Assembly (NCBI RefSeq): GCF_037392515.1
Contig: NC_090280.1
Span: 22,573,118-22,637,117 of the forward strand
Source: Haliotis asinina
Lineage: Eukaryota; Mollusca; Gastropoda; Lepetellida; Haliotidae
Reading direction: 5' to 3'
Length of the DNA: 64,000 bases
The translations under genes and the position numbers were made by a program. How positions within the stretch are numbered: position 1 is the stretch's first letter; each line of letters opens with the position of its first letter. The notes under the pieces were generated by a model that was not told the DNA's origin, searched no databases, and saw only the letters and a program-made list of their open reading frames with translations. Below are positions 1,372-64,000 of the stretch, piece by piece.

Positions 1372-1671
1372 AGAGGACATCCAGTACATGTCCGTGACTC
1401 CAGTCAGACTCCAGCCCCTCTTCCACAGCCTGGCAGCTGTAGTTGTCTCCCTGGTTCTCTCTGCTGACGTGGGGTATTGTAAGGTCATCTCCACCTGTAG
1501 GAGACTCATCACCAGATTCCAGCAGGGTCCTGTCCCTCCTCCAGATGTAGGTCATGGTCAGAGGGGGGTGGTCCGAGGGTAGACTCCGGGACGAGGAGGA
1601 GCATGTGAGGGTGACATTCTTACCTGACACAGGTAAGGCAGGTTCGGTGATGGTAGGTGTGGCTGGCTTCT
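1372..1671 (-). CDS. Gene 0 Ig-A domain exon (300 nt, phase 1-1)
   Basis: The exon encodes one complete Ig domain of about 100 residues. It has B-strand NVTLTC, C-strand YIWRRD and F-strand YSCQAVEEGL, so the canonical Cys pair and Trp are present. It is bounded by TTTTCACAG/AG upstream and CTCT/GTGAGTAAG downstream on the minus strand. The closing DVL fits the usual start of an Ig inter-domain linker; in genes 1 and 2 the next exon completes it as DVL-YGPDQI. Compared with paralogues it carries K instead of E before NVTLTC. Confidence 0.8.
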
Positions 1672-4600
1672 CTGTGAAAAATATAACACATGATACCAGA
1701 CCTTAACACCAGTGCCAATAAACATGGTTAAAAACATTCTAAAATATGAATCCAACGAGACATCATAAACTAAATGAACTAAATGCTTTGACTCTTTTGT
1801 TAATGAAGTATTCACCGTTATTGTCAGTTAAATAAACGCCGGCGACTCGCTAATACTCCTAATCGACTTGTTGATTAAATGTACTCTGTGAAAAAATATA
1901 ACAAATGATCCGAGACCTTAGCACGAGTGCCAGTAAACATGGTTTTACTAAATGTGTGGTTTGCCTCTCTGTGAAAAACGTTTCAAAATATGAATCCACT
2001 GAGACATAATAAACTGAATAAAGTAAATGCTCTGACACTTTCATTTATTAAGTATTCACCTTTATTGTCAATTAAATAAGCGCTAGCGACACGTTAATAC
2101 CCCTAAACGGTTCGTTGATTAAATGTACTACACAACTACTTTCCCCTTGGTCAAATGAATAAATCATATCTGTATGTATGTCTGTATGTCTTTATGTACT
2201 TCTGTATGCATCTCTTTACGTATGCCTGAATGTATGTCTGCATGTATCTCTGTATGTATTTCTGTATACATGTCTATGTATATATGTATGTATCATGTCT
2301 ATCTGTGTGTCTTTAAGTACCTCTGTATGCATGTCTCTACGTCTGTATGTATGTCCGTATGTATGTCTGTATGTATGTCTGTATGTATCTATGTATGCAT
2401 GTCTATATATATGTCTGTATATATGTCTGTATGTATCTTTGTATGCATGTCTGCATGTATGCCTGTATGTATCTCTGTATACATGTCCATGTATATATGT
2501 ATGTATGTCTGTGTGTCTTTATGTACTTCTGTATGTATCTCTGTACGTATGTCTGCATGTATGTATGTCTGTATGTATCTCTGTACGTATGTCTGTCTGT
2601 ATGTATGTCTGTATGTATGTCTGTATGTATCTCTGTACGTATGTCTGTATGTCTGTATGCATCTCTGTACGTATGTATGCCTGTATGTATTCTGTATATA
2701 TGTCTGTATGTATGTCTGTATGTATCTCGGTATGTATCTCTGTACGTATGTCTGTATGTATATCTGTATGTATGTCTGTATGTATCTCTGTATTTATGTA
2801 TGTATGTATCTCTGTATGTATGTCTGTATGTATCTCTGTATGTATGTCTGTATGTATCTCTGTAGGTGTCTGTATGTATGTCTGTATGTATCTACGTATC
2901 TATGTATCTATCTATCTATGTATGTATCTATGTATGTATCTATGTATCTGTGTCAGATTCGGGATTCAAATCTTAAAAACATGAAGCCAAAAAACCTACG
3001 TTTTTCCATAGTTCAGCCTCAAGTTAGACTTTTCTTCATATTCTTGTTTCGGGATTCAAATCCCGAATCAGAATATTTCGTTCAGATTTGGAGTTATGAC
3101 CAACAGTGTCAATATACATCATCCCACCCCTTCTAAGGTACTAGTACATGTATGTATGTATGTGGGTAGGTGGGGGCGGTGGATGGATGGATGGATGGAT
3201 GGATTGATGCCTGCCTGCCCACCTGCCTGCATGCATGCATGTAGGTAGGTAGGTAGGTAGGTGCGTACAAAATGTAAAAGAATCATTACAGGTGTTAAGT
3301 CATAAATGCAAACATTTGTTGTATTTCCAACGTGTACCTACAGAGAGATTGTAGCAGTTACAGTAGGACGTCATTACATATACATTATGACGTTACAGAG
3401 GGACAAAGTTCTGGAGTGACAAGTTCAAGCTTATAATGGTTTAACTTTTTAACAACATGATTTTCGACATCGGCGTGTTTTTTCACAGAATACACAGTTA
3501 ACATGCAATGCACGTGAACGTTGGGGATCAAATAGTCTGAACGATGGGTATAAAAGGTTGATCGCAGTTTGTCGATTATTCACTGTATTTGGAATATTGT
3601 TGACGAACGCTACATGCCTTGTCTGCGTGAAGCCAACCGTCATATCGCTATTGGTCTCCTTGAGGCCGGTAAGTCCCAGCGTGCAGTTGCCCAACGGATA
3701 AATGTTCACCAAAGCACCGTTTCACAGCTCTGATAGAGATATCGCTAAATTCGGTTGCAGACGCCCCTAGTACATCTGAACGAAATTTGAATCCCGAAAA
3801 AATCCCAAAAATATTCAGATTCGGGATTCGAATCCCGAATCCCAAATCCCAAATTCCGAATCCCAATCCCGAATCAGTTTCAAACTTCATGTTGCTTAAT
3901 CGTTGTTACACTGACTGGTGCTCGGGATGAATAAGACAGGTGGATTCGGATATACTGCGAGTGAGTGGTTGGTTGGACTGTTGTTTTAACACTGCACTTA
4001 ACAACATTCCATATATATGTCGGCTATCTGTGAATAATCGAGTATGGACCAGACAATCCGGTGATCAGCACCATCAGCATACCTCAACGCAATTGGGATA
4101 CCATAACATGCGTCAACCAAGTTAGCGAGCCTGTCTATCAGATCTCGCTAGTCGTATCGTACGACAAGCAAGGGGTAATGAAGACCAATTCTACCCCGGA
4201 TATTCACGGGTATACTGTGAGTAGGCTTGCCATGTTTAACTCCACAAAAGCACACGCACATATACAAACACATCTTTATATATGGTTAAGGTTTAGGTTT
4301 TAGTTTAGGAGCATTCATTTACTTATCTATCGTTCTGTTAACTCCACTTACGTGCTACAACGAGGACTTGTCTACGTCCAGTAACTTCCTGTCCATTGCT
4401 TCCCTGACAGTAGTAAGTACCAGCGTCCTGTACAGAGACATTGTAGATGGTAAACCTCAGCTGTCCGGTCTGTGATGGTGAGTCCTCCCCGGTGTATCTG
4501 ATCCTGGTCCTGAAGCCGGTGTGGCTACTGTTGATTACCACTACACGGTGTGACTTGGGCTGGACCAGTAACAGTCTCACAGATACCGAACCATTCACCC

Positions 4601-7600
4601 ATACATAATACACAAAGCTGACATTCTGTGGGTTCATGGCCATGGTAACATCTTCACCAACACGTGTAACAGTGTAAGGGTATCCAGTTGTCATGGAGAC
4701 TAGAGCTGTATACGAAAAGGTAATTAGAATCAGAACTCAGTAACACTAGATACGTTGACACGTTAGGCATTGCGTAAGATTACACTGAAAAGCAACTAAG
4801 TAAGAGATTCAACATGTATTTCAGTTTTCGAAGACAGATACATACCAAACCCATATAGTGCTACGGACACAATGGAACCCAGAAACATTGTCACTACTAC
4901 GGTGAGCAGAAACTGACATATGCAGTTTCTGATATAATGCGTCACATGATGTAGTTTCACTGGACAATATTTCCTTATAAACATTTCCCGGTGAACCTTA
5001 CGTTGTGCTACAATATTGCCGTGTGAATAATATATGTTTTTTGTGAATATGTCCTCCATCAACGCCCACATGGGTACAATGTGTGAAGTCCATTTCTGGT
5101 GATCACCCACTCATTCAACCACTGACTGACTGGTTCACTCATTCACCCATTCACTCACCATTCAACTACTCACGCACCAACAGATTCATCCACAAGTGAT
5201 ACCTATTTAAAACATTGATAATCTGTCCACAAGTCTGACATGACGTGAAAACGCAAACAAATGAGTATTAAATGCTAAAATCTCAGTGCTTACAAAAACA
5301 TATGTTCGCCTCCTCCACAGCAAGACTGCTTAATTTGAATACACCCCTCTACCCAAACACCACTGCAACCCAACCACTCACGCCGAGATTCACGCTCTCG
5401 TGAACTCTCAAGTGTAATATTCCCTCTATCAAACATTTACTGTTTGACCAGCCACGTCTTTCTCCTCTCTCACGTACACACATACAAAATATAATGCAGT
5501 ACGAATATGGCAGGTGACATTTAGATGTAAAGGATGAAACACCACTCCGAGGTTTTGGTAGCAGGTGTAAACCAGCGGAGGAGGGAAAATCCCAGGGGTA
5601 GAAGGCCGGGGGGATTTTACCAACTCCAAGGGTGGCCACGATGACAATGGTTAAGCTGCGTTAATTATTCCACGTTTTCCGTGGAAATATGACTTAGCCT
5701 GTGATTAAGGGGATGTCATCTTGTCCAGAGCAGATCTCCTACACTATAAATGCTAGCTTCATAGAACTTGGTACACATGCCAAGCATGATTGATCCCTTT
5801 CGGGGATTAGACCCGGACATGAAGTTTTTGAGGTTTCAATGTCCTCAGGGGTCTTTCGGGTGTTGCACCAGTGTGTGAAATTTGTTTGTGATTTTTTGTT
5901 TGTTTGGTTGGTTGGTTGGTTGTTTGTTTTTTTTCTTTGTTTCCGTGACAAGACGTTTGACATTAAAATTAGAACAGAAGCTTAAAACTGTTCACTATTA
6001 CTTCACCAACCTTGGCATATGGATAGGCCTGGTGGTATAGTGACGCCTTCTTTTAGGTTTGGATTTCTGAATAAAATATTTTTGGCGTTTAGATGGCAAC
6101 AAGTTCGAAATCGACTGACTTTGGTGGTAGTGCTCTTTCTAGGAGAAAAAAATTTTAAATCTTACAAGCCTTCCAATCTGTCATATGGCACACAGTTGCG
6201 GGGGATATTGATGACTTTTGTCTTAATGGTTCGTTCCTATTGACAGCAGGGTAATTATTTAGAGAGATATTCAATCTACGCACCTCAAGGAATATACAAA
6301 TATTCCTTATAAACCTCGTTGCAAAATGCCTGCGATACTTGTGATCAAATTCCGTCCTTCACTTGATGAAGTGGAAGGAAGTAGTCCAGAAACGTCATGT
6401 TGTAAATAATAAAGACGTTGTAAATCCATACACGATGCAGTGGTTTCTCAGAAAGCTTCTCCACAGTGACCGACTCTTGGTAGACTTGGTGAAGAACTTC
6501 ACTTGATGTACATCACATCGCTGTACTGTCGAGCAGTACATCACCATCAACAAAACCTTCCAACTTCAAACCTTGGCACACAGAGGATAGCTGTGGAATC
6601 CCTTGTTTTCGTTATGAGTCTTGACATGCATCATCAGAGGATCATCACATAAATAAATATGTGCAAAAGTACACAATAAGATTCTACCATGAAGAGCCTC
6701 CACATTAATCAAAACCCGGCCTACCGAATTGATTGGCATACACAAAGGATTAAGAGATTTAGAAGCGTTAGAATGGAAAATTCTAAAACAGTGAATCACC
6801 ATGTTTGAAAGGTATTTTTGACTAATAAGAATGAAGGAAACAGCTATTTGTGCTGCATTGCAACATGGCCGTTACAGACAATAAAATCGGTGATTTATGG
6901 ATTAAGCATGAGCCAAAGTGAATCAATGTTTTGCAATATGGAAAGAACTAGATGACATTGAAAACTCTGAAAAGGTTAATACAGCTTCTACAGGTACAGT
7001 TACGTTCTATCTGAAGTGTTCCCAAAACGTTAGTGAAAAGACACTGAGAGAGCTTTGAAATGAAAAGTCAAGGGCTGTTTGAGTATAGGTAGGTTCCATT
7101 CTCCTTCTATGAAAACTTGCTGAAGTATGTTGCATTTTTGGCATTCATGCCATAAATGGTACATTATGTGACCAGTTTATATGCTTTGCTTATAATAGTC
7201 GCAGTGCTGTAGCCTTTGTTAGGTTCTTCCTCCCTTTTTCCCTTCATCATACACTTTAACTCATGTCACTTGCTCGTGTCATGCACAGTCAAGCTCCCCA
7301 CATCGCTCTTTGAAACACATTCACCTCTAACAACAATACACATGAGGATAAACCGGACAAATGGACAAAATACATGTGGCACGAGGGTGAAAATAGTGAA
7401 TTCTTTACAAACTTTAGGTTACACTTTCACACTGGTAACTCTTTTTCAGGAAGCAGCTGATCACACAAAAACATACATGATGGTACATTTGCTTTAACAA
7501 ATGAGAACACAACCGGTGTGGTGGGATTAGGAATTCCAAATATAAAGCATGAGAAATATGCGGCACTCTGACCTCAAAGAGATCACAATGAAGAAAGGCA

Positions 7601-8787
7601 GTTACGAACACTCTTCAAATATACTTTCAAATCCAAAACACATTCACAAGCTCTAACCCTTAATTATTTTGGGAAACATTTTCAACTAATATCACAGTTG
7701 CTACGGTTGATAAATTGGTATAAGAAGGTATAAGAAATATCCTTCGAAATATCAAAATATTACACAGACAAGTCTAAAATACTGCGAGTGAGTAGTTGGT
7801 TGCATGGCTGCTAACACTTAACAACATTCCATATATATAGCGACGATCTGTAAATAATCGAGTCTGGACCAGACAGTCCGGTGATCAGTATCATGAGCAT
7901 ACATACACGTATTTGGGATACGAGAGCTACCCGATCCCGTTAGCCGTCTCGTACGACAAGCAATGGGTAATGAAGTCCAATTCCCGCCCTGATCTTCACA
8001 TGTATACTTCCATCCTTAACTCCACAAAAGCACACGCATGCACACGCACGTACACACACGCGTCTTTATATATGGTTAATTACGTTTTAGTTTAGGCTCA
8101 TTCATTTACCTATCTACCATTCTGTTAACTCCACTCACGTGCTACAACGAGGACCTGTCTACATCCAGTAACTTCCTGTCCATTGCTTCCCTGATAGTAG
8201 TAAGTACCAGCGTCATTGTAGATGGTGAACCTCAGCTGTCCGGCCTGTGATGGTGAGTCCTCCTCGGTGTATCTGATCCTGGTCCCGTAGCCGGTGTGAC
8301 TGTTGTTGAGTCCCTCTAGTCGGTGTGAGCTAGGGATGACTACTAACAGTTTCTTAGATACCGAGCCATTCATAAACACGGAGTATACTGAGCTGACATT
8401 CTCAGGGTTCATGGTCATGGTAACATCTTCACCAACACGTGTAACTGTGTATGGGTATCCAGTTGTCATGGAGGCTACAGCTGCACTCAAAACAAATATT
8501 ACTCCTGAAAACAAGGCTAACAGTTGACATAAATATTCAAGCTCATCATTGAAGCCCGCTCAATATATTACAAGTTGATAGGTACATACCACATATGCAG
8601 GTACGCAAACGAATTGTGAACGAGAAATTTAGGCGTCAAAATATCTAGTTTCTCAAAAAAAATTTTCTTAGACAAAACTGGTCACTTATATAATGTCATG
8701 TAAAGCTCATTTAATGGGTTTCTTTACAGCTGACAGGTACATACCACACACATGTAAGCCCCAAAAGAGAATGTGAGCCACAGACAT
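1372..8787 (-). CDS. IgSF receptor gene 0, 5' part (tail beyond left edge)
   Basis: This is the 5' half of a predicted Ig-superfamily membrane receptor. Exons in transcript order are signal-b 8787-8745, V-b 8480-8139, signal-a 4888-4846, V-a 4705-4352 and Ig-A 1671-1372. The two signal exons look like alternative first exons, each followed by its own V-like domain. Every junction is phase 1, so signal-a to V-a to Ig-A reads through in frame (the V-a/Ig-A junction codon is CAG). Ig-B, membrane and tail exons are not in the window and should lie left of base 1, judging from genes 1 and 2. The V-a route looks intact; the V-b exon has lost its F-strand Cys. A cell-surface binding receptor with intracellular tyrosine signalling is inferred from the paralogues. 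Ligand unknown. Confidence 0.7.
1672..2160 (-). repeat. Intron with a locally duplicated acceptor-side segment
   Basis: This is the intron between V-a and Ig-A next to the Ig-A acceptor. A segment of roughly 180 bp (about 1672-1860, with the CTGTGAAAAA acceptor-like end and an ATGAATCCA..GAGACAT stretch) recurs at about 1972-2130. The same sequence follows Ig-A of gene 2 at about 47980-48230. No further exon is seen. Confidence 0.5.
2165..2955. repeat. Long (TGTA/TGTC) tetranucleotide microsatellite
   Basis: About 790 bp of interspersed GTAT and GTCT tetramers with interruptions. Because the repeat lacks stops in several frames it yields long Met/Tyr/Val/Cys/Leu-rich open frames, which are artefacts. 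It lies in the V-a to Ig-A intron and is absent from the matching intron of gene 2. Confidence 0.95.
2950..3085. repeat. Palindromic TTCGGGATTC repeat, first cluster
   Basis: Contains copies of TTCGGGATTCAAATC and the complementary GATTTGAATCCCGAA type word. It pairs with the denser cluster at 3775-3890. Together the two look like a foldback-type repeat flanking about 0.7 kb that includes a Tc1-like fragment. Confidence 0.4.
3145..3265. repeat. Compound tetranucleotide microsatellite (GTAT, GGAT, CTGC, GTAG)
   Basis: Four adjacent short runs: GTAT, then GGAT, then CTGC/ATGC, then GTAG. Non-coding. Confidence 0.9.
3613..3735 (+). mobile_element. Tc1-like transposase N-terminal fragment
   Basis: The plus strand reads MPCLREANRHIAIGLLEAGK followed by SQRAVAQRINVHQSTVSQL and stop codons. 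This matches the first helix-turn-helix (paired-like DNA-binding domain) of Tc1/mariner transposases. No catalytic DDE region follows, so this is a decayed 5' fragment. It is unrelated in sequence to the intact element at 13.7 kb. Confidence 0.6.
3775..3890. repeat. Palindromic GATTCGGGATTC cluster
   Basis: Short tandem and inverted copies of ATTCGGGATTC and GAATCCCGAATCCC. The cluster could fold into a hairpin and resembles the cluster at 2950-3085. Confidence 0.5.
3957..4211 (+). mobile_element. SINE (Haliotis-type family), diverged
   Basis: Contains the family landmarks ATAATCGAG, TGGACCAGACAATCC, the GTCAACCAAGT box, TACGACAAGCA and a TTCACGGGTA tail. The head is diverged. A matching copy sits at 48575-48821 in the paralogous intron of gene 2, so this insertion predates the gene duplication. 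Confidence 0.75.
4352..4705 (-). CDS. Gene 0 V-a Ig-like exon (354 nt, phase 1-1)
   Basis: Encodes a 118-residue V-like Ig domain. The F strand shows VQDAGTYYCQ and the C strand YYVWVNG, but the B-strand position (EDVTMAMNP) has Met where Cys is expected. The G-strand Cys seen in sister copies (TGCRQ) is Arg here (TGRRQ). Bounded by a GTATACAG acceptor and a CAC/GTAAGT donor. It begins x-LVSMTTGYPYTVTR, which continues the hydrophobic signal from the preceding exon. Confidence 0.75.
4846..4888 (-). CDS. Gene 0 signal-a exon (43 nt)
   Basis: ATG at 4888 begins MFLGSIVSVALYGF and the exon ends G/GTATGT in phase 1. Joined to V-a it gives a hydrophobic leader running into LVSM, consistent with a secretory signal peptide. 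The identical 43-nt design at all five V modules supports the start choice. Confidence 0.7.
4952..4974 (-). promoter_or_regulatory. Conserved box upstream of signal-a
   Basis: A 23-bp block with GGAAATATT and GAAACTA halves on the minus strand, 64-86 bp before the ATG. The same block occurs at the same relative place before all five signal exons. A TTTATAAG TATA-like word overlaps its upstream edge. GAAACT is the core of interferon-response-type sites, but only a half site is present, so factor binding is speculative. Confidence 0.4.
5111..7780. repeat. Spacer between V-a and V-b, duplicated at 49.68-52.71 kb
   Basis: No exon recognised. It starts with short (CACT)n-like tracts and then matches the spacer between V-a and V-b of gene 2 almost collinearly, with small indels. 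Open frames of 70-96 codons are mostly conserved only as far as the DNA itself is conserved and have no recognisable features. Confidence 0.6.
7784..8003 (+). mobile_element. SINE (Haliotis-type family), diverged
   Basis: Carries ATAATCGAG, TGGACCAGACA, CGATCCCGTTAG and TACGACAAGCA landmarks and a decayed 3' end. The paralogous copy is at 52716-52961, which retains the GTCAACCAAGTC box deleted here. Confidence 0.7.
8139..8480 (-). CDS. Gene 0 V-b Ig-like exon, F-strand Cys lost
   Basis: Same V-like domain as V-a, 342 nt rather than 354. A 12-nt in-frame deletion shortens the segment before DAGTYY, and the F-strand Cys is Tyr (TYYYQ). The frame stays open and both splice sites are intact (AGTGCAG acceptor, CAC/GTGAGT donor). 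It may still be spliced in, but the fold is doubtful; it is probably drifting. Confidence 0.65.
8585..8645 (-). pseudogene. Relict second signal-b exon
   Basis: Between signal-b and V-b lies a stretch that ends CATATGTG/GTATGTAC like a signal-b exon and aligns loosely over about 40 nt, but has no ATG. Equivalent relicts occur at about 33590-33650 and 54115-54170. Confidence 0.35.
8745..8787 (-). CDS. Gene 0 signal-b exon (43 nt)
   Basis: ATG at 8787 starts MSVAHILFWGLHVC and ends G/GTATGT in phase 1. It joins V-b in frame (GCT, Ala) to complete a hydrophobic leader. Confidence 0.65.
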
Positions 8788-15023: not shown

Positions 15024-15039
15024 TAGGTTCTGTGGAAGA

Positions 15040-15255
15040 AGTTGAAGAGTGGAGAGACGTATAGATGTGGAACTGTTCCGTCAGTTTAGGCTTCACCTGG
15101 TACTGTGGTCCTCTGTTGAGGAAGATGAAGAGTGGTGAGACGTGTAGACGTGGAGCTTAAATGTCAGTTTAGGCTTCACCTGGTACTGTTGTCATGTGCT
15201 GAGGAAGATGAAGGATGGAGAGACGTGTAGATGTGGAACTGTTCCCTCAGGAGTA
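15040..15255 (-). repeat. 83-bp minisatellite at gene 1 3' end, about 2.5 copies
   Basis: Tandem copies of the unit that encodes FHIYTSLHPSSSS at the receptor C terminus. The first copy overlaps the stop codon and the rest lie in the 3' UTR. The right-hand gene has about eight copies. Confidence 0.75.
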
Positions 15256-15359
15256 GCTCGTAATCATGTAGAGGTAAGACATCGTTGTTGGAAGCACGAG
15301 GTACATCACTGAAGTCACGGGATAATCTCGCTGCCATCACAGTAAGGTAGTCACCACAT
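15176..15359 (-). CDS. Gene 1 terminal exon with YLTV and YELL motifs
   Basis: Starts in phase 2 after an ATTATAG acceptor and reads CGDYLTVMAARLSRDFSDVP, then a stretch with HDYELLLREQ and IYTSLHPSSSS, ending STR-stop at 15176. Cytoplasmic if TM-1 is the only membrane pass. The C terminus comes from the first unit of the 83-bp minisatellite. Confidence 0.72.
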
Positions 15360-18300
15360 CTATAATTACAACATTACACTTATATTGCCCTTAATTTTGA
15401 CTTGTCCATAAGTGCCCCTGCATTTTTCTTTCAAGTAGTGTGCAGTGGAAATTACCCCCTACTTCAACCATGATCATACATTTCCTACCCTTTTTTAACA
15501 AATTGTGCATAAGTTACATAGATACAATTGTTACTTTTTCAGTCATTTCCACAGTTAATCTGTGAAGGCTTATAGTCTAAGATTTCTGAGGTAAGTTGAG
15601 TAAATGGTGTTTGACACCAAAGGCAACAACCGTTTATTTGAAGACTTGTTCTCTGGTTATTACGATGTCTGACATACGAGTCCAGCACTTAAGATGAAAA
15701 CGTAAAAACATGTACCTGTTGTCCTGGTTCTCTGCAAGTAAAATAAAAGACAAACTTGTACATTTCTAAACGGATCGATTCGTCCACACAGAGTAACAGT
15801 AAAGAATAAGTCGCTTTTAGAATAGTCCATCAACATCACCAAAACCAGAACACTACGACTGAGCTTCATTATACTCATATGGGGAATCGAACCTGGGTCT
15901 TTGGCGTGAACACCTTATCGCCTGGTCTACTGATCACTTCCGTACTAAATCCAAAAATGAAAACAGTGTTTACAAACTAAAATGAGGACAAAATATTGCA
16001 GCACGTGAAGGTGAACCACGGATATGCCCGTATACTGTTCGACGCTGCTTTCAGCAATATCCCACCAATACTACGCTTGTCTGATATATGCCAGACTTGC
16101 CGATTACACCCACTGGTTGATATAATGAGCATCGATTTACGCAACTGGGATACGGTTGATAAACATGCATGAGCATAATCAGACTGTAACCTGTTGTAAC
16201 ATGCATGGTTGTTGAAGATAGGTTGTGACCAGATCCTCCACGTTGTGGTAATATTGTGTTGATTGTGGTGTGTTAGGAATTGGAGCGGGTTGACACTTAC
16301 ATTGCATGCAAAAATATTCATGCATTCTTTGTACATTTTATGTCCTTGAAGACAAGAACAGTGACTGCTGCCACCACAACTGCCACAGCAGTCAGCATAA
16401 CGGAGTAGACAACTACGATGGGGACGATGTCATCTACGTTTGCATCACCTTCTGATATCAGACACATAAGATGACACATTTCTGTGTTAAGTATAACAAT
16501 TCAAGTGACAATACAGCGACGTATTCACCATGGAGTATTTTCTTGTTCCTATTAAAGCATTAATCAACTTTATGACATAAATAATGTATTTAAACTGAGA
16601 AAATAGTATTTTTCTCTACAAGAACGGCAAAGCAATAAAGTAAGCAAACCATGAATAAGGAAGAATCATTTCGGATGACCGTTACAGGTGTCCAGACTAG
16701 CTGTCCCAACACGACCCATCACCAATTTCTGAAAAATGTCTTAAGTATTGGGACATCTAGAATATCAACGAATTTGACTCTATTTACAATGTTATAGCTA
16801 TTCTGTTATGGCTATTTCAAACTAAATAATCGGGGGTTTTGGTCTCTTTCCTTGGTTTGAGACACGACTTCAGAGATTAGACAGTTCGAGCTACGTTTCA
16901 TTATATCATACACGGCAGTTTGGGTCTCACAGCCCATGCACTGTCTGTAAATAATCGAGTCTCGACCAGGCAATCCAGTGATCAACAGCATGACCATCTA
17001 TCTGCTCAAATGGGAACCGACGTGGATGTTGCAAGCATGGGTTGCTGAAGGCTATCTACCCTAGATTTTCAAATGTCCTTCAGATGGGAGATAGTTCAAG
17101 CTACGTTCACTCCACACATCAGTAGCCTATACGGCAGTTCGAGTTTCACAGTCGTTACACATCATGCTAGTTGTTAACCTTCAGACACCAACCTTCTATT
17201 TCCTGGTAGCTCCCATCGTTTTCATCTTCCCTGTGATACGACACCAGACTGATAAAAGTGAACATTGAACGTGAGCATAATGAGAGGAAATTATTAAGCT
17301 GTGACACACTCTCAATTTATATCGCGCCCCAAATCGTGTATATTCATGCCTGGTTGGTTTGTTGTTTAACGATACACTCGGCAATATCACAGATATATGT
17401 CGACGGTCTGTAAATAAATGGCTCTGGACAAGATAATCCAGTGATCAGAAGCATAAACATCGTCACCATCCCCTAGTCAAATTTTTTCGACAAGCATGGG
17501 TTGCTGAAAAAAAATTCTAAATTGGATCTTCACGGGTACTTACACCTGTGTGGTGATGAAATATTTATTCACCTTACATGAACATTGACGAGCATACTCA
17601 CCGATCTCTCTCGCGATCTGGAAACAATTATGCATACAAACGTAAAGTAAATATGCGTACAAACTTTTACTTTCATCACGGATGTTCTATTGTGCACATC
17701 TGTATATACCACTCCCGTACATTGCACACTGATGTTATTATTTTCCTCTACTTAGAAGTTAATGAGTATAAGAGATACTTTACATCAAACGGCATGCGTT
17801 TCAGTATGGTCAATCACTGCTCATAGTTGTCAGAATTTGAAAATGCTTATACACCTTTAGTTTTGTATGTTGACAGCTTACCAAAAGTCCAAGACTGATT
17901 TTCAGACATCGTACATAACACTACCCCTTTAATAATTCGTATGACTTGTTTAACGTCATCTGAATCAACTGACGTGGCGTACAACAGTGACGTCCTGCAC
18001 CAACCTGCTATCTCCTCGTAACCTCCGTCTGTGTCTGCGTCACGGGTGTATGTGACAACGCTGCCGGGGGGAAGGAAATGTAGAAAGTGGTCGGAATCAA
18101 GGATATTTTTTTAAAAAATCCGCTTTCCTTAGACACAGAATCTTGCAAAGGACAAAATAGTTGTAACAGTTAAATCCATGAATGTGCTCACAAAAAGGGT
18201 AAGCACGTTCTGAGTTATGGGTAGTTAATGATCTTCTAACATTTGCCTGAAATGTCAAAAACTGTGATACCAGCAGCTCATTAGCGATGTGCTATTAATT

Positions 18301-39989: not shown

Positions 39990-40270
39990 GAAAAGTGAAA
40001 ACACGTGCAGATGTGGAACTGTACCGTCAGTTTAGGTTTTAGCTGGTACTGTGGTCCTCTGTTGAGGAAGATGAAGGATGGAAAGACGTGCAGATGTGGA
40101 ACTGTACCGTCAGTTTAGTTTTCACCTGGTACTGTGGTCCTCTGTTGAGGAAGATGAAGGATGGAGAGACGTGTAGACGTGGAACTGTACCGTCAGTTTA
40201 GCTTTCACCTGGTACTGTGGACCTCTTCTGAGGAAGATGAAGGATGGAGAGATGTGTAGATGTGGAACTG
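39990..40270 (-). repeat. 83-bp minisatellite at gene 2 3' end, about 3 copies
   Basis: Same unit as in genes 1 and 3. The first copy covers the C-terminal codons and stop. Confidence 0.85.
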
Positions 40271-40388
40271 ATCCCGCAGGAGTCGTTCGTAATCGTATAG
40301 GGGTAAGACATCGTTGTTGGAAGCACGAGGTACATCACTGAAGTCACGGGATAATCTCTCTGCCATCACAGTGAGATATTCACCAAAT
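40205..40388 (-). CDS. Gene 2 terminal exon with YLTV and YERL motifs
   Basis: Reads FGEYLTVMAERLSRDFSDVP, then LYDYERLLRDQ and IYTSLHPSSSS, ending STR-stop at 40205. Phase 2 acceptor ATTACAG. Confidence 0.75.
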
Positions 40389-49300: not shown

Positions 49301-49468
49301 TAATTAAAATCAGAACTCAGTAACACTAGATACGTTGACACGCTAGACGTTGCGAAAGATTAAACTGAAAAGCAACTTAATCAGAGATTCAATATATATT
49401 TCAGTTTTCGAAGACAGATACATACCAAACCCATATAGAGCTACAGACGCAGTGACACCCAGAAACAT
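40205..49468 (-). CDS. IgSF tyrosine-tail receptor gene 2 (complete model)
   Basis: The clearest complete locus. Exons: signal-a 49468-49426, V-a 49285-48938, Ig-A 47980-47681, Ig-B 46077-45811, TM-1 45357-45235, microexon a 43198-43177, YEEI exon 42798-42743, microexon b 42406-42385, YQEI exon 42047-41992, optional TM-2 41424-41308, 16-nt microexon 40747-40732, terminal exon 40388-40205. Without TM-2 the sum is 1437 nt (478 residues plus stop); with it 1554 nt. Every junction is phase-compatible. The product is a signal peptide, a V-like domain without the usual B-strand Cys, two Ig domains joined by a YGPDQI linker, one membrane span with CRKQRR stop-transfer, and a tail with YEEI, YQEI, YLTV and YERL. 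A broken V-b module lies upstream at 53.1-54.3 kb. Likely a signalling surface receptor; ligand unknown. Confidence 0.78.
40732..40747 (-). CDS. Gene 2 16-nt microexon (ENQDN)
   Basis: Same 16 nt and flanks as in gene 1; phase 1 to 2. Confidence 0.65.
40996..41140 (+). mobile_element. Old SINE relic
   Basis: Paralogue of 16036-16170, heavily diverged. Confidence 0.35.
41308..41424 (-). CDS. Gene 2 second membrane exon TM-2 (117 nt)
   Basis: xGDANVDDIVPIVAVYSIML followed by AVAVVVAAVTVLVCRDVK, ending G/GTACAA. Phase 1-1 cassette like gene 1 and gene 3. Gene 2 Ig-B ends in A, so here a direct Ig-B to TM-2 join (AAA) would also be open. Confidence 0.67.
41992..42047 (-). CDS. Gene 2 YQEI tyrosine exon (56 nt)
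   Basis: VVSYHREDENDGSYQEIE; acceptor TTACCAG, donor GAAG/GTTGG; phase 2 to 1. Confidence 0.72.
42149..42320 (+). mobile_element. SINE, diverged
   Basis: Paralogue of 17350-17540, with GCCACACTCAGCAATAT and a TTTACGACAAGTATGGGTTG remnant. Confidence 0.6.
42385..42406 (-). CDS. Gene 2 microexon b (22 nt)
   Basis: CTTTCAG/AGAGAGG...CATCG/GTGAGTA, reading ERGCARHR with its split codons. Paralogous to microexon a (GRGCTYNR). Confidence 0.65.
42743..42798 (-). CDS. Gene 2 YEEI tyrosine exon (56 nt)
   Basis: VVTYTRDADTGGGYEEIV; acceptor CCCCCAG, donor GTAG/GTTGG; phase 2 to 1. Confidence 0.73.
43177..43198 (-). CDS. Gene 2 microexon a (22 nt)
   Basis: GTTTCAG/GTAGAGG...AATCG/GTGAGTA, giving GRGCTYNR with split codons at both ends. 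Confidence 0.65.
43199..45234. other. Intron between TM-1 and microexon a of gene 2
   Basis: No exon recognised. Paralogous to the matching introns of genes 1 and 3. Includes an (ACACGC)n tract at 45065-45135. Confidence 0.5.
45065..45135. repeat. (ACACGC)n microsatellite
   Basis: CACACGCACACACGCACACG run, expanded differently in gene 3 (63690-63800). Confidence 0.9.
45235..45357 (-). CDS. Gene 2 transmembrane exon TM-1 (123 nt)
   Basis: TRELNESGVVSIVPVTAVCS, then ILIVIITVVVMVVV and CRKQRRG. Acceptor TTTCAG, donor GGAG/GTAAAAC. Confidence 0.8.
45811..46077 (-). CDS. Gene 2 Ig-B domain exon (267 nt)
   Basis: YGPDQIQFHGTRDNLEVEEG start, CSADCNPACTVTWWD, and YTCHVNNSHGSASRNLTLEV end. Phase 1-1; donor TTCA/GTAAGG. 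Confidence 0.78.
46078..47680. other. Intron between Ig-A and Ig-B of gene 2
   Basis: Contains a SINE (46793-47070) and, from 47090, sequence shared with the left edge of the window. No exon seen. Confidence 0.5.
46793..47070 (+). mobile_element. SINE (Haliotis-type family), near full length
   Basis: GTGAGTGAG run, TTTTACGCCGCACTCAGCAA, GAGTCTGGACCAGACAATCC, TACGACAAGCAGAGTCGC and GGGACCTTTACGGGT end. Little decayed. Confidence 0.88.
47681..47980 (-). CDS. Gene 2 Ig-A domain exon (300 nt)
   Basis: QKPATPTITGPASPVSGENV start, VTLTC, YIWRRGM and YSCQAVEEGLVS. Same boundaries as the other copies. Confidence 0.8.
48255..48549 (-). mobile_element. LINE 3' fragment (minus strand)
   Basis: Reads CSICTDEDEVEDECHVLLRC then PLYDDIRRELMERC. 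The Cys/His pattern with ED..H.L..CPLY..R resembles the C-terminal zinc-knuckle-like end of LINE polymerases. No RT core; absent from the paralogous intron of gene 0. Confidence 0.6.
48575..48821 (+). mobile_element. SINE, diverged (paralogue of 3957-4211)
   Basis: Same head and landmarks as the gene 0 copy, plus the GTCAACCAAGTCAGCG box. Confidence 0.7.
48938..49285 (-). CDS. Gene 2 V-a Ig-like exon (348 nt)
   Basis: V-like domain, two codons shorter near the N terminus (MTNEYTVTR). F strand VQDAGTYYCQ, G strand TGCRQVLVVV. The B strand has no Cys, but a Cys appears in the C strand (IYCVWVNG). Donor TGC/GTAAGT. Confidence 0.76.
49426..49468 (-). CDS. Gene 2 signal-a exon (43 nt)
   Basis: ATG at 49468 begins MFLGVTASVALYGF, ends G/GTATGT. 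Joined to V-a as GCT (Ala). Confidence 0.72.
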
Positions 49469-53080: not shown

Positions 53081-54003
53081 GTGCTACAACGAGGGCCTGT
53101 CTACATCCAGTAACTTCCTGTCCAATGCTTCTGTCAACGGGTGGGTGAGATCGACGTGATTACTTACATGCAATACTTTGACGAAATGAAGGCATAGTTT
53201 AGTTGTTCAAACTTCTTTAGATGGTTTCACAAGATATGACAAACAAGTATACATGAATGAGGTGAGCGGACTTCCAGCTCAACCCCAGGGCCTTTCCTGC
53301 GAGCGGCATAATCCTGCTCACTGTCGTCCCTACACAGACAGTCGGAACACCGGTCTCCACACTCACATCTCACTTCTCACGTACAGTATAGATGTGAGCA
53401 TGCATATATATATAGTTTTTAACAACAATAGACAGGCAAAAATTCAACAAAGGACAGATAGAGAAACAATAGCACTTCTTTCTACAGTTGATGCGATGAC
53501 AGACACAGCCAAGGGGGATGACCAATAAAGGCCATAAATGTCATATACAGTAATTAATGGAAGTGACAAAGAGGAACAAGGTAACTGACAAAACAATGTA
53601 CTCTGCGGTAGTGATAAAGATCAAGATTGTAGATCGAATAATAATAACTAAATATCATATAGCCTGGCCACATTGTTTTTGGTCTGTAGAAATATTTGGG
53701 CATGACTGTCCTGAAGTAGACACTATAACATTTCTTTGACAGTAGTAAGTACCAGCGTCCTGTACAGTGACATTGTAGATGGTAAACCTCAGCTGTCTGG
53801 AGTATCTGATCCTGGTCCTGTAGCCGATATGGCTGTTGCTGAGTCCCTCTAGTCGGTGTGAGCTAGGGATGACTACTAACAGTTTCTAAGATACCGAACC
53901 ATTCATAAACACGGAGTATACTGAGCTAACATTCTCCTGGTTCATGATCATGGTAACATCTTCACCAACACGTGTAACAGTGTATGGGTATCCAGTTGTC
54001 ATG
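53081..54003 (-). pseudogene. Gene 2 V-b Ig-like exon, broken
   Basis: The 3' end of a V exon (53081-53130, CAC/GTGAGT donor intact) is separated from the rest (about 53736-54003) by an anonymous insertion of about 600 bp. The larger piece also lacks about 22 nt around the segment encoding TGEDSPSQTG in sister copies. It cannot give a V domain. The signal-b exon just upstream remains intact. Confidence 0.75.
53131..53735. mobile_element. Anonymous insertion of about 0.6 kb in the V-b exon
   Basis: Interrupts the V exon of the preceding entry. No terminal repeats, tail or coding motif recognised; one 91-codon plus frame (53253-53528) has no features. It has no counterpart elsewhere in the window that I could see. 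Confidence 0.4.
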
Positions 54004-54114
54004 GAGGCAAGACCTGCACTCAAAACAAATATTACTCATGAAAACAAGGCTAACAGTTGACATGAATATTCAAACACATTATTTAAGCTCGCTCAATATA
54101 TTACAACTTGACAG

Positions 54115-58309: not shown

Positions 58310-58995
58310 AGTGGAGACACGTGCAGATGTGGAACTGTACCTTCAGTTTGGGTTTCACCTGGTACTGTGGTCCTCTGTTGAGGAAGATGAAGGATGGAAA
58401 GACGTGCAGATGTGGAACTGTACCGTCAGTTTAGGTTTCACCTGGTACTGTGGTCCTCTGTTGAGGAAGATGAAGGATGGAAAGACGTGTAGATGTGGAA
58501 CTGTACCGTCAGTTTAGGTTTCACCTGGTACTGTGGTCCTCTGTTGAGGAAGATGAAGGATGGAAAGACGGGTAGATGTGGAACTGTACCGTCAGTTTAG
58601 GTTTCACCTGGTACTGTGGTCCTCTGTTGAGGAAGATGAAGGATGGAAAGACGGGTAGATGTGGAACTGTACCGTCAGTTTAGGTTTCACCTGGTACCGA
58701 GGTCCTCTGTTGAGGAAGATGAAGGATGGAAAGACGGGTAGATGTGGAACTGTACCGTCAGTTTTGTTTTCACCTGGTACTGTGGTCCTCTGTTGAGGAA
58801 GATGAAGGATGGAAAGACGGGTAGATGTGGAACTGTACCGTCAGTTTAGGTTTCACCTGGTACCGAGGTCCTCTGTTGAGGAAGATGAAGGATGGAAAGA
58901 CGTGTAGATGTGGAACTGTACCGTCAGTTTAGGTTTCTCCTGGTACCGAGGTCATTTGTTGAGGAAGATGAAGGATGGAGAGACGTGTAGGTGTG
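58310..58995 (-). repeat. 83-bp minisatellite at gene 3 3' end, about 8 copies
   Basis: Tandem units of 83 bp with very few differences between neighbours. The right-most unit encodes the receptor C terminus; the others form the 3' UTR. Genes 1 and 2 have about 2.5 and 3 copies. Confidence 0.93.
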
Positions 58996-59119
58996 GAACT
59001 GATCCCGCAGGAGTCGTTCGTAATCGTATAGGGGTAACACAGCGTTGTTGGAAGCACGAGGTACATCACTGAAGTCACGGGATAATCTCTCTGCCATCAC
59101 AGTGAGATATTCACCAAAT
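58924..59119 (-). CDS. Gene 3 terminal exon with YLTV and YERL motifs
   Basis: FGEYLTVMAERLSRDFSDVP, LYDYERLLRDQ, YTSLHPSSSS, ending RRNLN-stop. A single base change in the minisatellite unit removed the ancestral TGA, so the reading runs further into the repeat. Confidence 0.73.
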
Positions 59120-60529
59120 CTGTAATCACAACATTACACTTATGTTACACTTGCCCACTTCAACTATGGTCATAGATTTCCAACACTTTTTTAGCAAATT
59201 GTGCATCAGTTACATAGATACATTTGCTACTTTCTCTGTCATTTCCACAGGTAATCGATGCCGGCGTTTATCTAAGATTTCTAAAGGTACGTTGACTAAA
59301 TGGTCTTTGACACAGAAGACAGCAACCGTTCATATGAAGATTTGTTCACTAGTTATTACGATGACTGACTCCAGCACTTAAGATAAAAACATGAAAACGT
59401 GTACCTGTTGTCCTGGTTCTCTGCAAGTAAAACAAAAGACTTGTACATTTCTAAACGGATCGATTCATCCAACACTGAGTAACAGTAAAGAATTAGTCGC
59501 TCTCAGACTAGTCCATCAACATGACCAAAACCAGAACACTATAAATATGGCTATACTCATATGGGGAATCGAACCTGCGTCTGTGGCGTGAACACCTTTT
59601 CCACTGGCCTACCAACCACTCCATTACTGAATAAAAGAATCAAAACAACTTCACAAACTAAAATGAGAACAAAATATTGCAGCACGTCAAGGTAAACCAC
59701 GGATATGCCCGTATACTGTTCGACGCTGCATTCAACAATATCCCAGCTAGACTACGCTTGTCTGATACATGCCAGACTTGCCGAGAACACCCAGTGGTTG
59801 ATATAAAGAGCGTCGATATACGCAACTGGGATACGTCGGAAAAACATGCATAATCAACCAGTGTTTCTCACATGTTGCAACATTGGTTGCTAAAGACAAG
59901 TTCTGACCAGGCCCTCACGTTGGGGTAATTTTTTGTTGGTTGTGGTGTGTTGGGGATTGGAGGGGTGGGGGTTGAAAGTTACATTGCATGCAAAAATATT
60001 CGTGCATTCGTTGTACCTTTCGCGTTCTTGCAGACAAGAACAGTGACTGCTGCCACCACAACTGCCACAACAGTCAGCATAATGGAGTAGATAGCTACGA
60101 TGGGGACGATGTCGTCCACGTTTGCATCACCTTCTGATACAAGACAAAGATGACACATATCTGTATAAAGTATGATAATTCATGTGACAATATAGCGACG
60201 TATTTCACCAAGGTGTATTTTCTAGTTCCTGTTAAAGCACTGATTAACTTTATGACATAAATAATGTCAACTGACCAAATAGTATTTTGCTCTACAAGAA
60301 CTATGACACAATAAAGTAAACAAGCGATGAGTAAGGAAGAATCATTCACCGGGATGACCATAACAGTTCTCCAGACTAGTGGATCCTTTTCCACAATACG
60401 ACCCATCACCAATATCTGGTAGTGCTTTCTGAACATTGAGAAATGTCATAACTATTCGGACATCTAGAATATCCGACTCTATTTACAATATTATAGCTAT
60501 TCTATTATGGCTATTTCAGACTAAATAAT

Positions 60530-60564: not shown

Positions 60565-63500
60565 CGGTCTCTTTGGTTGGTTTGAGACACGACAACTGTT
60601 CCAGGCTTCAGACACTAGACAGTTCGAGCTATATTTCATCATAAAATGCACGGCGCGGCAGTTCGAGTTTCACAGCCGTTCCACTGTCTGTAATCGAGTA
60701 TGGATGAGACAATCCAAATACCAACAGCATGACCATCGATCTGCGCAAATGGGAACAAATGATATGTGTCAAACATGTCAGCGAGAACGACGTGCCGATC
60801 TTTTTAGTTGCCTCTTACGACAAGCATAGTCGACGTTTATGGCAAGCATGGGTTGCTGAAGACTATCTACCATGGACGTGTAAGAGTCCTTCAGACAGGA
60901 GATAATTCGAGCTACGTTTACTCGACATATCAGTACCCTATACGGCAGTTCGAGTTTCACAGTCGTTACACATCATGCTAGTTGTTAACCTTCAGACACC
61001 AACCTTCTATTTCCTGGTAGCTCCCATCGTTTTCGTCTTCCCTGTGATACGACACCAGACTGATAAAAGAGAACATTGAACGTGAGCATAATGAGAGGAA
61101 ATTATTAACCTGTGACACACTCTCAGTTCATATCGCGCTCCAAGTCGTGTACAGTTTTGCCTGGTTGTTTTGTTGTTTCACGCCGCACTCAGCAATATCA
61201 CAGGTATATGTCGACGGTCTGTAAATAAATGGTTCTGGACCAGATAATCCAGTGTTCAACAGCATAAGCGTCGATCCCGTTCATCAGCTTTTACGACAAG
61301 CATGGGTTGATGAAAACCAATTCTAGCCTGGATCTTCACGGGTAATTACACCAATGTGGTGATGAAATATTTATTCACTTTACATGAAGATTAATGAACA
61401 TACTCACCGATGACGAGCACATCCTCTATCTGTAAGTTTAAAGTGTGTGGGAACAATTATACATAAAAACTTAAAGTATATATTTATTTCTTACACACTG
61501 ATATTACCATTTTTTCTCCATTTAGAAGTTTAAGAGTTTAAGAGATACTTTACCTCATACGGTACGAGTTTCAGGAAAAGGTCAATCAGTGCTAATAGTT
61601 GTCAGAATTTTAAAATGTTGATATACCTTTAGTTTTGGATGTTGACAGCTTACCAAAAGTCCAAGACTGCTTTTCAGACATTCTACATAACACTACCCTT
61701 TTAAAAATTCGTATGACCTGTTTAATGTCATCTGAATCAACTGACATGGCGTACTAGAATGACGTCCAGCACCAACCTGCTATCTCCTCGTAGCCTCCGT
61801 CTGTGTCTGCGTCACGGGTGTATGTGACACCGCTGGGGGAAGGAAATGTAGAAAGTGGTCGGAATCAAGGATATTTAGAAAAACAATCCGCTTTCCTCAG
61901 ACACAGAATCTTGCAAAGGACAAAATAGCTGTTACAGTTATATGCATGAATGTGTTCACAAAAAGGATAAGCACGTTCTGCCTTATCGGTAGTTCACGCT
62001 CTTCTAACATTTGCCTGAAAGAACGAAATCTTTGTGACAAGAACAGCTCATTAACGATGTGCCATTAATTCTGCTTGGGCTTATGCTCCACATATACTGC
62101 TACTGATAAGTGAAATATCGCTAATCAAATCACTGTATTTGTGATTAAGTGTTTCCACAATACCCTTGAAAAATAGCAGCTACTGCAAAATTTTAAGTCA
62201 GCTGTTGACACATTTTGCCATACTCACCGATTATATGTGCATCCTCTTCCTAAAACAAATAATTTTGTGTAAATAATGACATATGCACAATGTTAGATGA
62301 AAAATATAAGATAAACGATCCACCATTTGCTGGAAAACACCTTTTCACCTTCAAATCGCGTAAAAATGCATAAAACGTGGCGTTTTCACAACACATTGTC
62401 AGATCAGTCAACTGTGTACCAAAATCACACCGAAAGTTTGAACTGCACCAAATTGTTGACTTGGGCACAACACGTGATCGAGCACATCTTTGACAACCAT
62501 GTGTCCCGCCCGAGATCGCCACATCGTCTTCACTCATTTAAGGAACAGGTTCTCACTCATTTAAGGAACAGGTTCAAGTCAGTCTCCAGAAGAGACATTA
62601 CCATTCATGGAAGAAGAGAAATCGTCCTCCCACAGACGGTACGACAGTGATTACGTCAGCTGGGACTGCGTGCGCATAGGTATCCTATTTACTTGACGAG
62701 TCCTGATTTCATCTCAGTCATGCGTATACAAGGATCAGAGTGACGTGGACAACGTAACGCTGATTGTTGAGTTCAGCAGGGTTCGTGGAAGCGTAATGAT
62801 TTGTAGCGAGATTGGTAGTGATGGCAGGACACATGTGCACGTCTGTCATGGTCGAGTTACAGCTCAAACGAATACGTACTGAGAACAGCAGTTGTTCCTG
62901 TTCCCAACATGGCGGCGGATCAACGCCTTCACATTTTGCAGCAGGATTATGCAAGTGACGGCCATACCCGTTACTGACATTGACTGTGAAACTTTTGAGG
63001 GCGTTTGGAAATGAGTTTGACCCCCTTCAACGTTATCGTTAATTCACGTTTGCACTAAAGTGAGAATGACTACTTTTGATTTTACGTGTGTTTCAATCTT
63101 GTTTGACGACTTCGGTTTCAACTGGGACAAGTTCTTTTCTTCGTTTATCACGGATATTCAACGTTTTATCCCAGTGATGCGTTTCTAAAGTAGTTCAGTA
63201 TACTTTCACCGCCTTCTCTTACAATCTGTCCTCCCTCTCAAACCCTTCCTTAAAGCCGGTCTCAGATTCCATCTCTCCACGAGAGACTTGGTCTTCTTCC
63301 TTGATGAATAGTCACCATCAAGGACACTTTTACATTTAATCAAGATACACCACAGACACGTTACAAATCACACCTAGAGAGAATCAATAATATAAGTAGG
63401 ACAAAATCATCATTTCCTTGAAAATGTATCACATGTCAGTAGGAAGTGAAATAATTACCAGCTAGCTTTCTACTGAGTATGGGTGGAAATAGACATCAGA

Positions 63501-63744
63501 CGCTACATACCAAAGTATTGTAATATGTTTTGCAGACAAAGAAGAGGCATCAAATCAATACTTATTAGTATTGTTTAACATTTCTGTAGGTGTATATATG
63601 TATGTGAGTTGTGGGGTAAAACTGTTTAAAGTACTCTGGTAACTATCTGACGTTCCCTACCCTCTCCCCCACTCTAGTGACGATGCACTCAACACACACA
63701 CACACGGACATACACACGGACACACACACGGACACACACACGCA

Positions 63745-63775
<31 letters not shown>

Positions 63776-64000
63776 GCACACAGGCCACACACGCACACAC
63801 GCTATTACGTGAGATGAGTATCTGTAATGTCTGAACCAAAGTGCCAAGGAAGTGTTTGTGAGAGAGGCCACTTTACGTCCCTCTCGAGTTCTAGTCATTC
63901 ACTGTCACATCACACCGTTTTACCTCCACGTCTCTGTTTTCTACAAACAACAACCATGACGACGACAGTGATGATCACGATCAGGATGGAGCAGACAGCA
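58924..64000 (-). CDS. IgSF tyrosine-tail receptor gene 3, 3' part (continues beyond right edge)
   Basis: Contains TM-1 (from the right edge to 63924), microexon a 62249-62228, YEEI exon 61832-61777, microexon b 61429-61408, YQEI exon 61059-61004, TM-2 60133-60017, 16-nt microexon 59420-59405 and terminal exon 59119-58924. Spacing and phases match genes 1 and 2. Ig exons should lie right of base 64000. The stop used by genes 1 and 2 is changed to Arg, extending the tail by a few residues (ending RRNLN). Confidence 0.72.
59405..59420 (-). CDS. Gene 3 16-nt microexon (ENQDN)
   Basis: Identical to the gene 1 and gene 2 copies. Confidence 0.65.
59710..59850 (+). mobile_element. Old SINE relic
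   Basis: Paralogue of 16036-16170. Confidence 0.35.
60017..60133 (-). CDS. Gene 3 second membrane exon TM-2 (117 nt)
   Basis: xGDANVDDIVPIVAIYSIML, then VVAVVVAAVTVLVCKNAK, ending G/GTACAA. Phase 1-1. Confidence 0.66.
60531..60563. repeat. Poly-G run of 33
   Basis: Thirty-three consecutive G in the TM-2 to YQEI intron. The paralogous sites in genes 1 and 2 have five G. Could be a true expansion or a sequencing/assembly artefact. Confidence 0.95.
60681..60900 (+). mobile_element. SINE, diverged
   Basis: GTCTGTAATCGAGTATGGA, GCAAGCATGGGTTGCTGAAG. Related to 16939-17075 but less deleted. Confidence 0.6.
61004..61059 (-). CDS. Gene 3 YQEI tyrosine exon (56 nt)
   Basis: LVSYHREDENDGSYQEIE; phase 2 to 1; donor GAAG/GTTGG. 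Confidence 0.71.
61159..61343 (+). mobile_element. SINE, diverged
   Basis: CACGCCGCACTCAGCAATAT, GACAAGCATGGGTTGATG and TTCACGGGTA. Paralogue of 17350-17540 and 42149-42320. Confidence 0.68.
61408..61429 (-). CDS. Gene 3 microexon b (22 nt)
   Basis: CTTACAG/ATAGAGG...CATCG/GTGAGTA, phase 1 to 2, reading DRGCARHR. Confidence 0.63.
61777..61832 (-). CDS. Gene 3 YEEI tyrosine exon (56 nt)
   Basis: GVTYTRDADTDGGYEEIA; phase 2 to 1. Confidence 0.72.
62228..62249 (-). CDS. Gene 3 microexon a (22 nt)
   Basis: GTTTTAG/GAAGAGG...AATCG/GTGAGTA, reading GRGCTYNR. The acceptor is TAG rather than CAG. Confidence 0.62.
62250..63923. other. Intron between TM-1 and microexon a of gene 3
   Basis: No exon seen. 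Paralogous to 43199-45234. Contains an AC/GCAC/CGGACAC microsatellite at 63690-63800. Confidence 0.5.
63690..63800. repeat. AC-rich microsatellite (ACACGG, GCAC)
   Basis: Mixed ACACACGGAC and CACGCACGC units; the Cys/Val-rich minus frames are artefacts. Confidence 0.9.
63924..64000 (-). CDS. Gene 3 transmembrane exon TM-1 (cut by right edge)
   Basis: The visible part encodes the membrane span and CRKQRRG stop-transfer, almost identical to gene 2 TM-1, with donor GGAG/GTAAAAC. Confidence 0.75.

Follow-up and report, generated by a model that had tools for sequence, protein, structure and literature searches.

A tandem family of predicted immunoglobulin receptors with an ITAM-bearing tail in the abalone Haliotis asinina

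We describe here a cluster of immunoglobulin (Ig) receptor-like genes in the gastropod Haliotis asinina, examined from a 64,000-nucleotide stretch (the window) at positions 22573118-22637117 of contig C1 (NC_090280.1) in one assembly (GCF_037392515.1; 1.14 Gb in 159 contigs). The window contains two complete copies (G1 and G2) and two partial copies (G0 and G3) of one minus-strand gene, and 16 copies of its tail, with exons in constant order, are present in the 314 contiguous kb formed by the window and 25 adjoining 10-kb stretches (L009-L028 and L029-L033). It is likely that these genes constitute a germline-encoded, clustered family of type I surface receptors, each with a signal peptide, one V-type and two C2-type Ig domains, probably one of two membrane-plus-tail cassettes, and an immunoreceptor tyrosine-based activation motif (ITAM) of its own. 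The exon structure, its conservation, the motif with its spacing, and the clustering are directly supported; surface display, kinase coupling, and splice choice are predicted. A role in recognizing variable targets, either pathogens or self/non-self, is suggested by the cluster size and by analogy with the tunicate fester co-receptors (FcoR; PMC12065747) and the oyster receptor CgIgIT2 (PMC11999971).

G1, the reference copy, spans window positions 49468 down to 40205, and its 12 exons, set by splice sites and phase, lie in the order signal peptide, V, C2a, C2b, membrane exon TM1, micro-exon m1, tyrosine exon Ya, micro-exon m2, tyrosine exon Yb, second membrane exon TM2, micro-exon m3, and a terminal ITAM exon (Table 1). 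The chain reads without interruption from Met to stop, with GT/AG borders and compatible phases at every junction, and the frame survives skipping either of TM2 or of TM1 through Yb. A sequence-only reading of the window had proposed at least four head-to-tail minus-strand copies with Ig, membrane, and tyrosine exons bounded by GT/AG sites in matching phases, and both the copies and the exon plan are borne out by the G1 model and by the shared exon order in the tail copies, with the cluster being larger than that reading stated. Its start position, 1372, coincides exactly with the G3 C2a exon end. Self-BLAST and a repeat search of the window show minus-strand repeat units whose tail halves are ~25.0 and ~18.7 kb apart. 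A two-pass protein using both TM1 and TM2 would be in frame, but its ITAM would end up extracellular, and we judge it unlikely. An extra exon considered at 44195-44300 (NVSNGYDRHLHNP...) was rejected because its frame is not kept, the eight alignable copies being 106, 106, 106, 104, 104, 105, 101, and 88 nt in length.

Projection of the G1 exons onto the 314 kb located the other copies, with an exon copy counted as intact if it has AG, GT, frame, and no internal stop (AG being waived for the signal-peptide exon and GT for the terminal exon). By this standard 147 of the 159 non-reference exon copies are intact. The control, to which no splice test was applied, consisted of 120-nt intronic segments that are open in G1, and both frame and openness are kept in 125 of its 274 alignments. 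All eight main exon classes are present in 13 of the 16 units; the incomplete units are unit 10, which has only TM2-m3-ITAM, unit 13, without full C2a and C2b, and unit 15, without m1 to TM2. The non-intact copies are in V (6/20), Yb (2/13), and C2a, C2b, m2, and ITAM (one each), although the failing m2 copy is a projection artefact, and is actually a 16-nt exon with AG/GT. The strongest single sign of exon conservation is the constancy of the micro-exons, with m1 at 22 nt in 14/14 copies and m3 at 16 nt in 16/16, every one with AG and GT. Fifteen of 21 V exons are preceded by a signal-peptide-like exon with a G/GTATGT donor. The gene copies are thus mostly intact, and the unequal decay that had been attributed to them holds mainly for the extra upstream V exons, where it is concentrated.

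In genome-wide searches, for which the match counts are lower bounds by the search method, 150 of 331 candidates were scored for the ITAM exon and 150 of 178 for the V exon. The ITAM exon has at least 119 matches, at least 57 of them full-length (one with a stop) and at least 62 partial, many of the latter in 83-bp repeat arrays. Of these 57 full-length matches, 55 lie within C1:22.348-23.573 Mb (40 minus and 15 plus), and the other two at 28.06 Mb; a multigene tandem cluster is therefore present, with at least 55 ITAM-exon copies in 1.22 Mb, a number possibly inflated by near-identical pairs. All 54 matches to TM2 are free of stops, and two of them are at 28.06 Mb. For the V exon there are at least 118 matches, at least 70 of them at E 1.2e-40 or better (3 of 70 with a stop), and of these 70 best matches 48 fall within the main cluster, the remaining 22 being at 24.2-27.2 Mb, 0.7-3.6 Mb beyond it, where no ITAM or TM2 match was reported (for ITAM, among the 150 of 331 candidates scored). 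Stretch L034, the site of one of these 22 V exons, contains a compact gene (3193-6059) with V-C2a-C2b and a TM1-like exon, and TM2 and ITAM exons were not found in the ~2 kb after the latter; its predicted product has the same kind of ectodomain with a different membrane exon or tail.

Two sampled far pairs of stretches are 99.8% identical over 4.0 kb and 99.7% identical over 3.0 kb, and represent either recent segmental duplications or unmerged haplotypes, so that copy number may be inflated. These pairs, together with the main exons missing from 3 of 16 units and the stops or frameshifts in some upstream V exons, could be taken to mean that the cluster is largely inflated or non-functional, with few genes used among recent segmental copies or unmerged haplotypes. 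We regard this as improbable, in that the highest exon identity among 105 pairs of 15 compared units in the 314 kb is 95.1%, and in view of the complete units and intact exon copies described above. Because even the closest pair is only 95.1% identical in exons, these 15 units are not haplotype duplicates.

The G1 terminal exon ends in YERL-LRDQFHI-YTSL, corresponding to YxxL-x7-YxxL and to ITAM spacing. The strict motif (YxxL/I x6-8 YxxL/I) is present in 14/16 copies, compared with 0.6% when the same residues are shuffled, and each of the two remaining copies has F at one fourth position. If V or F is allowed at that position the motif is found in 16/16 copies; both ITAM tyrosines are present in all 16, and the terminal exon stop is at one shared position in 12. 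Exons Ya and Yb encode two tyrosines each in 14/14 copies, including a YEEI in G1 Ya, and YEEI is a Src-type SH2 ligand. The earlier proposal of an Ig receptor family with SH2-type tyrosines therefore stands, sharpened to a strict ITAM in most copies.

TM2 resembles TM1, with cross-matches of 32-48% identity, and the membrane exon has thus probably been duplicated. The sequence following Yb is also unusual, with conservation at bases +11 to +60 of 0.96 and 0.94, compared with 0.95 for the Yb exon itself and 0.52 to 0.92 for the same stretch after ten other exon classes (0.92 being that after m2). Read-through of Yb reaches a stop in 14/14 copies, one of which has a 9-nt in-frame deletion and one of which lacks the GT donor but keeps the frame; the corresponding stop after Ya is present in 10/14 copies, both sets being counted by eye. 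Conservation of this frame and stop suggests that some transcripts may end with Yb, in which case TM1-Ya-Yb-stop and TM2-ITAM-stop would be alternatives and each gene would perhaps have two membrane-plus-tail cassettes to choose from. We envisage that cassette choice would yield either TM1 with a Ya-Yb tail, which carries the tyrosines of YEEI and YQEI, or TM2 followed by a tail that has the ITAM at its end. Ligand binding would lead to receptor clustering and to phosphorylation of the tail by Src-type kinases; the ITAM could then recruit a Syk-type tandem-SH2 kinase, and the YEEI-type sites could bind single-SH2 proteins.

The ectodomain is recognizable by profile. The C2a exons match Pfam ig above the cut-off in G3 (E=2.1e-8), G1 (E=3.2e-8), and G2 (E=3.3e-6), as does the G1 C2b exon to I-set (E=8e-10), and the G2 C2b exon is under every Pfam cut-off when searched alone. 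With V-set (cut-off 26 bits), the G3 V exon scores above at 28.0, and those of G1 (25.7) and G2 (20.4) score below, although all 15 V exons searched together match at E<=0.01. In the spliced G1 model the profiles mark out three Ig stretches (Ig_3 at 73 bits, V-set at 41.7 bits), and both cysteines of the B-F pair are present in the C2a and C2b translations. No Pfam family matches the open frame at 8125-8559. The best solved-structure sequence relatives of the ectodomain are CEA (1.2e-20), FcRL5 (4.7e-14), and MAG (1.7e-13), with NCAM2 also among them, and by sequence the ectodomain is generic Ig superfamily (IgSF). The presence of CEA, MAG, and NCAM2 besides FcRL5 raises the question of whether these are adhesion or neuronal/gamete-type Ig receptors rather than immune or allorecognition receptors, with the tyrosines tuning adhesion. 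We consider this unlikely in light of the strict two-YxxL ITAM in 14/16 copies and the dozens of tandem copies, a combination more usual in immune-type receptors.

Evolutionary distances differ in behavior along the gene. In Mantel tests across 13 units, each of the six pairings among C2b, TM1, TM2, and ITAM shows correlated distances (r 0.43-0.65, p 0.001-0.003), whereas the distances of V (r -0.36 to 0.09) and of C2a (r 0.02 to 0.10) are uncorrelated with these four or with each other. Three further results keep us from a firm claim of exon shuffling. The halves of V show no correlation (r 0.13), nor do those of C2a (r -0.10), in contrast to the halves of C2b (0.61) and ITAM (0.62); there is a weak correlation between the second V half and the first C2a half (r 0.33, p 0.047); and distances in the intron before C2b are unrelated to those in the intron before ITAM (r 0.08). 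This pattern is suggestive of recombination within the outer domains and also fits a weak signal.

Several observations weigh against the receptor family as we have drawn it. The B-strand Cys of the V domain is absent in 15/15 aligned exons, with the F-strand Cys kept; CEACAM N-domains also lack the usual disulfide. The AlphaFold model of the V exon is poor (mean predicted local distance difference test score of 39.9) and was not used for a fold search. Strong diversifying selection is unsupported, as no exon class has a ratio of nonsynonymous to synonymous substitution (dN/dS) above 1, the pooled values being 0.69 for V, 0.57 for C2a, 0.72 for C2b, 0.74 for TM1, 0.77 for Ya, 0.20 for Yb, 0.50 for TM2, and 0.54 for ITAM. 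Finally, the Yb donor is GT in 13/14 copies, and in 11/14 copies neither AATAAA nor ATTAAA occurs in the 900 nt following Yb, compared with 5/16 after the ITAM exon; Yb is thus perhaps usually spliced, and the scarcer poly(A) signals make the two-cassette arrangement slightly less likely. Positive selection in V was considered and rejected, since pN/pS peaks at 1.33 in windows without a significance test.

The conserved Yb donor would also suit a single long tail in the same family, in which TM1 is used, TM2 is either a relic or spliced out, and one multi-tyrosine tail is built from Ya, Yb, and the ITAM exon. The chain without TM2 stays in frame, and the copy at C1:22348306 lacks m1 to TM2, such that TM1 is followed directly by m3-ITAM. 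However, TM2 is open in 54/54 matches with its pooled dN/dS of 0.50, which is unlike a relic, and the Yb read-through frame and stop are conserved, and we view the long tail as a rather doubtful alternative. Returning to the two cassettes, we propose tentatively, as somewhat less likely than not, that this may be a molluscan germline cluster of 'one-gene paired receptors', in which one Ig ectodomain per locus would be joined to either cassette (the ITAM tail, or the YEEI/YQEI tail ending at the stop after Yb) and V and C2a would recombine between loci. It would then be another independent origin, outside the vertebrates, of KIR-like recognition, serving allorecognition or pathogen sensing.

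Features of the window are listed in Table 1; the V, C2a, and C2b exons of G0 are outside it, and the C2b through ITAM exons of G3 lie before its first base.

Table 1. Coordinates of exons and related features in the window
Feature	Position	Strand	Remarks
G1 signal-peptide exon	49426..49468	-	MFLGVTASVALYGF; phase 1 donor
G1 V-type Ig exon	48938..49285	-	phase 1-1
G1 C2a Ig exon	47681..47980	-	phase 1-1
G1 C2b Ig exon	45811..46077	-	phase 1-1
G1 membrane exon TM1	45235..45357	-	phase 1-1
G1 micro-exon m1	43177..43198	-	22 nt; phase 1-2
G1 tyrosine exon Ya	42743..42798	-	GGGYEEI
G1 micro-exon m2	42385..42406	-	22 nt
G1 tyrosine exon Yb	41992..42047	-	GSYQEI; to its GT donor
Possible terminal extension of G1 Yb	41966..41991	-	GWCLKVNN, stop; stop kept in 14/14 copies
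G1 second membrane exon TM2	41308..41424	-	phase 1-1
G1 micro-exon m3	40732..40747	-	16 nt; phase 1-2
G1 terminal exon	40205..40388	-	ITAM YERLLRDQFHIYTSL and stop
G2 signal-peptide exon candidate	33742..33784	-	MSVTHILFLGLHVC
G2 V exon	33139..33492	-	
G2 C2a exon	22077..22376	-	
G2 C2b exon	21247..21507	-	Pfam below cut-off
G2 TM1 exon	20085..20207	-	
G2 m1 micro-exon	18476..18497	-	
G2 Ya exon	18005..18060	-	
G2 m2 micro-exon	17602..17617	-	16 nt; 6 nt shorter, frame kept
G2 Yb exon	17193..17248	-	
G2 TM2 exon	16335..16451	-	
G2 m3 micro-exon	15716..15731	-	
G2 terminal exon	15176..15359	-	ITAM YELLLREQFHIYTSL
G0 TM1 exon	63924..64000	-	runs past window to 64046
G0 m1 micro-exon	62228..62249	-	
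G0 Ya exon	61777..61832	-	
G0 m2 micro-exon	61408..61429	-	
G0 Yb exon	61004..61059	-	
G0 TM2 exon	60017..60133	-	
G0 m3 micro-exon	59405..59420	-	
G0 terminal exon with ITAM	58936..59119	-	no stop at G1 stop position; projected end approximate
G3 signal-peptide exon	4846..4888	-	MFLGSIVSVALYGF
G3 V exon	4352..4705	-	
G3 C2a exon	1372..1671	-	
Decayed extra V exon upstream of G1	53684..54013	-	has an internal stop and lacks a GT donor
Extra V exon upstream of G3	8139..8480	-	four residues missing before DAGTYYY motif; F-strand Cys to Tyr
83-bp tandem repeat, 8.3 copies	58312..59001	-	overlaps and extends beyond G0 terminal exon

Two classes of signal-peptide exon, MFLG...YGF and MSVTHILF...VC, are found upstream of similar V exons (e.g. 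at 49426-49468 and 33742-33784). Among the extra V exons, those at C1:22553325 (L032/L031 border region) and C1:22559199 (L031) are 5.87 kb apart and have identical translations with a shared frameshift, reflecting either a very recent duplication or an assembly fault. Two distant matches to the V exon (E 1.6e-6 and 1.6e-5, with 33-34% identity), at C1:3.03 and 2.94 Mb, may be outgroup genes far from the cluster. The 83-bp repeat is also present at window positions 39999-40270 (3.3 copies) and 15029-15241 (2.6 copies), overlapping the ITAM exon end and expanding downstream, and a much larger array of ~11 kb at C1:22386200-22397331 was traced by partial ITAM-exon matches. We read the repeat as a 3' minisatellite grown from the coding exon end; repeats acting as additional in-frame ITAM halves were considered and rejected, as 83 is not divisible by 3 and the stop of the coding exon is at the same position in 12/16 copies. 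Between G3 and G2 there is a broken element resembling a long interspersed nuclear element (9819-11904, plus strand) with three open frames, the middle one matching RVT_1 (E=1.2e-14), and the window also contains a Tc1/mariner-like transposase (13850-14860, minus strand) with a continuous 336-codon open frame matching DDE_3 (E=3.6e-17). The egg-lysin family is known from abalone and close relatives, and six matches to it on C14 of the same genome, all above cut-off (best E 2.9e-12), support the molluscan source that the sequence-only reading had proposed for the receptor family.

Tandem Ig receptors with tails containing an ITAM or an immunoreceptor tyrosine-based inhibition motif (ITIM) are central to vertebrate natural killer and myeloid recognition. 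The abalone genes share clustering and ITIM/ITAM-type tails with CEACAM, FcRL/Siglec, and KIR/LILR, although the likeness is that of general Ig and the abalone exon plan differs in having micro-exons, TM2, and its own ITAM, and the expansion appears to be independent of vertebrate CEACAM, FcRL, and KIR. Such receptors are also reported in tunicate and cnidarian allorecognition loci (PMC12065747). The Botryllus FcoR comprise 53 clustered loci encoding type I proteins with V and two C2 Ig domains and a tyrosine-motif tail, with tail-motif-swapping splicing reported for some loci (PMC12065747). The abalone family resembles them in being a clustered multigene family of predicted type I proteins with V and two C2 domains and a tyrosine signaling tail, but FcoR have a sushi domain between V and C2 and an ITIM or hemITAM, whereas the abalone family has a full two-YxxL ITAM, and no sushi domain matches the G1 model at E<=0.01. 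Hydractinia Alr genes, likened here by description, form a cnidarian and thus likewise invertebrate Ig-type multigene complex with reported ITAM/ITIM motifs (as cited in PMC12065747).

Within molluscs, oyster CgIgIT2 is described as an Ig receptor with an ITAM and haemolymph signaling, but as one protein with five Ig domains (PMC11999971), whereas the abalone genes have three Ig exons each, two membrane exons, and a clustered arrangement. Gastropod FREPs are defence proteins with two IgSF domains and a C-terminal fibrinogen domain (PMC11999971); the G1 model instead has a membrane exon and tail, with no fibrinogen match. Because sushi, fibrinogen, and five Ig domains are not found, we do not place the family in FcoR, FREP, or CgIgIT2. 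A literature search found no gastropod or abalone ITAM/Ig cluster, which is weak evidence of novelty as subscription papers were mostly outside its reach. The exact exon coordinates make expression, polymorphism, and binding of this putative recognition system directly testable, and if the two-cassette plan is true, one gene would give two signaling versions of one receptor. By analogy, the family may work like KIR/LILR, CEACAM, and FcoR without membership of any being claimed, and a gastropod cluster this large with a full ITAM would extend the logic seen in vertebrates, tunicates, and cnidarians to molluscs.

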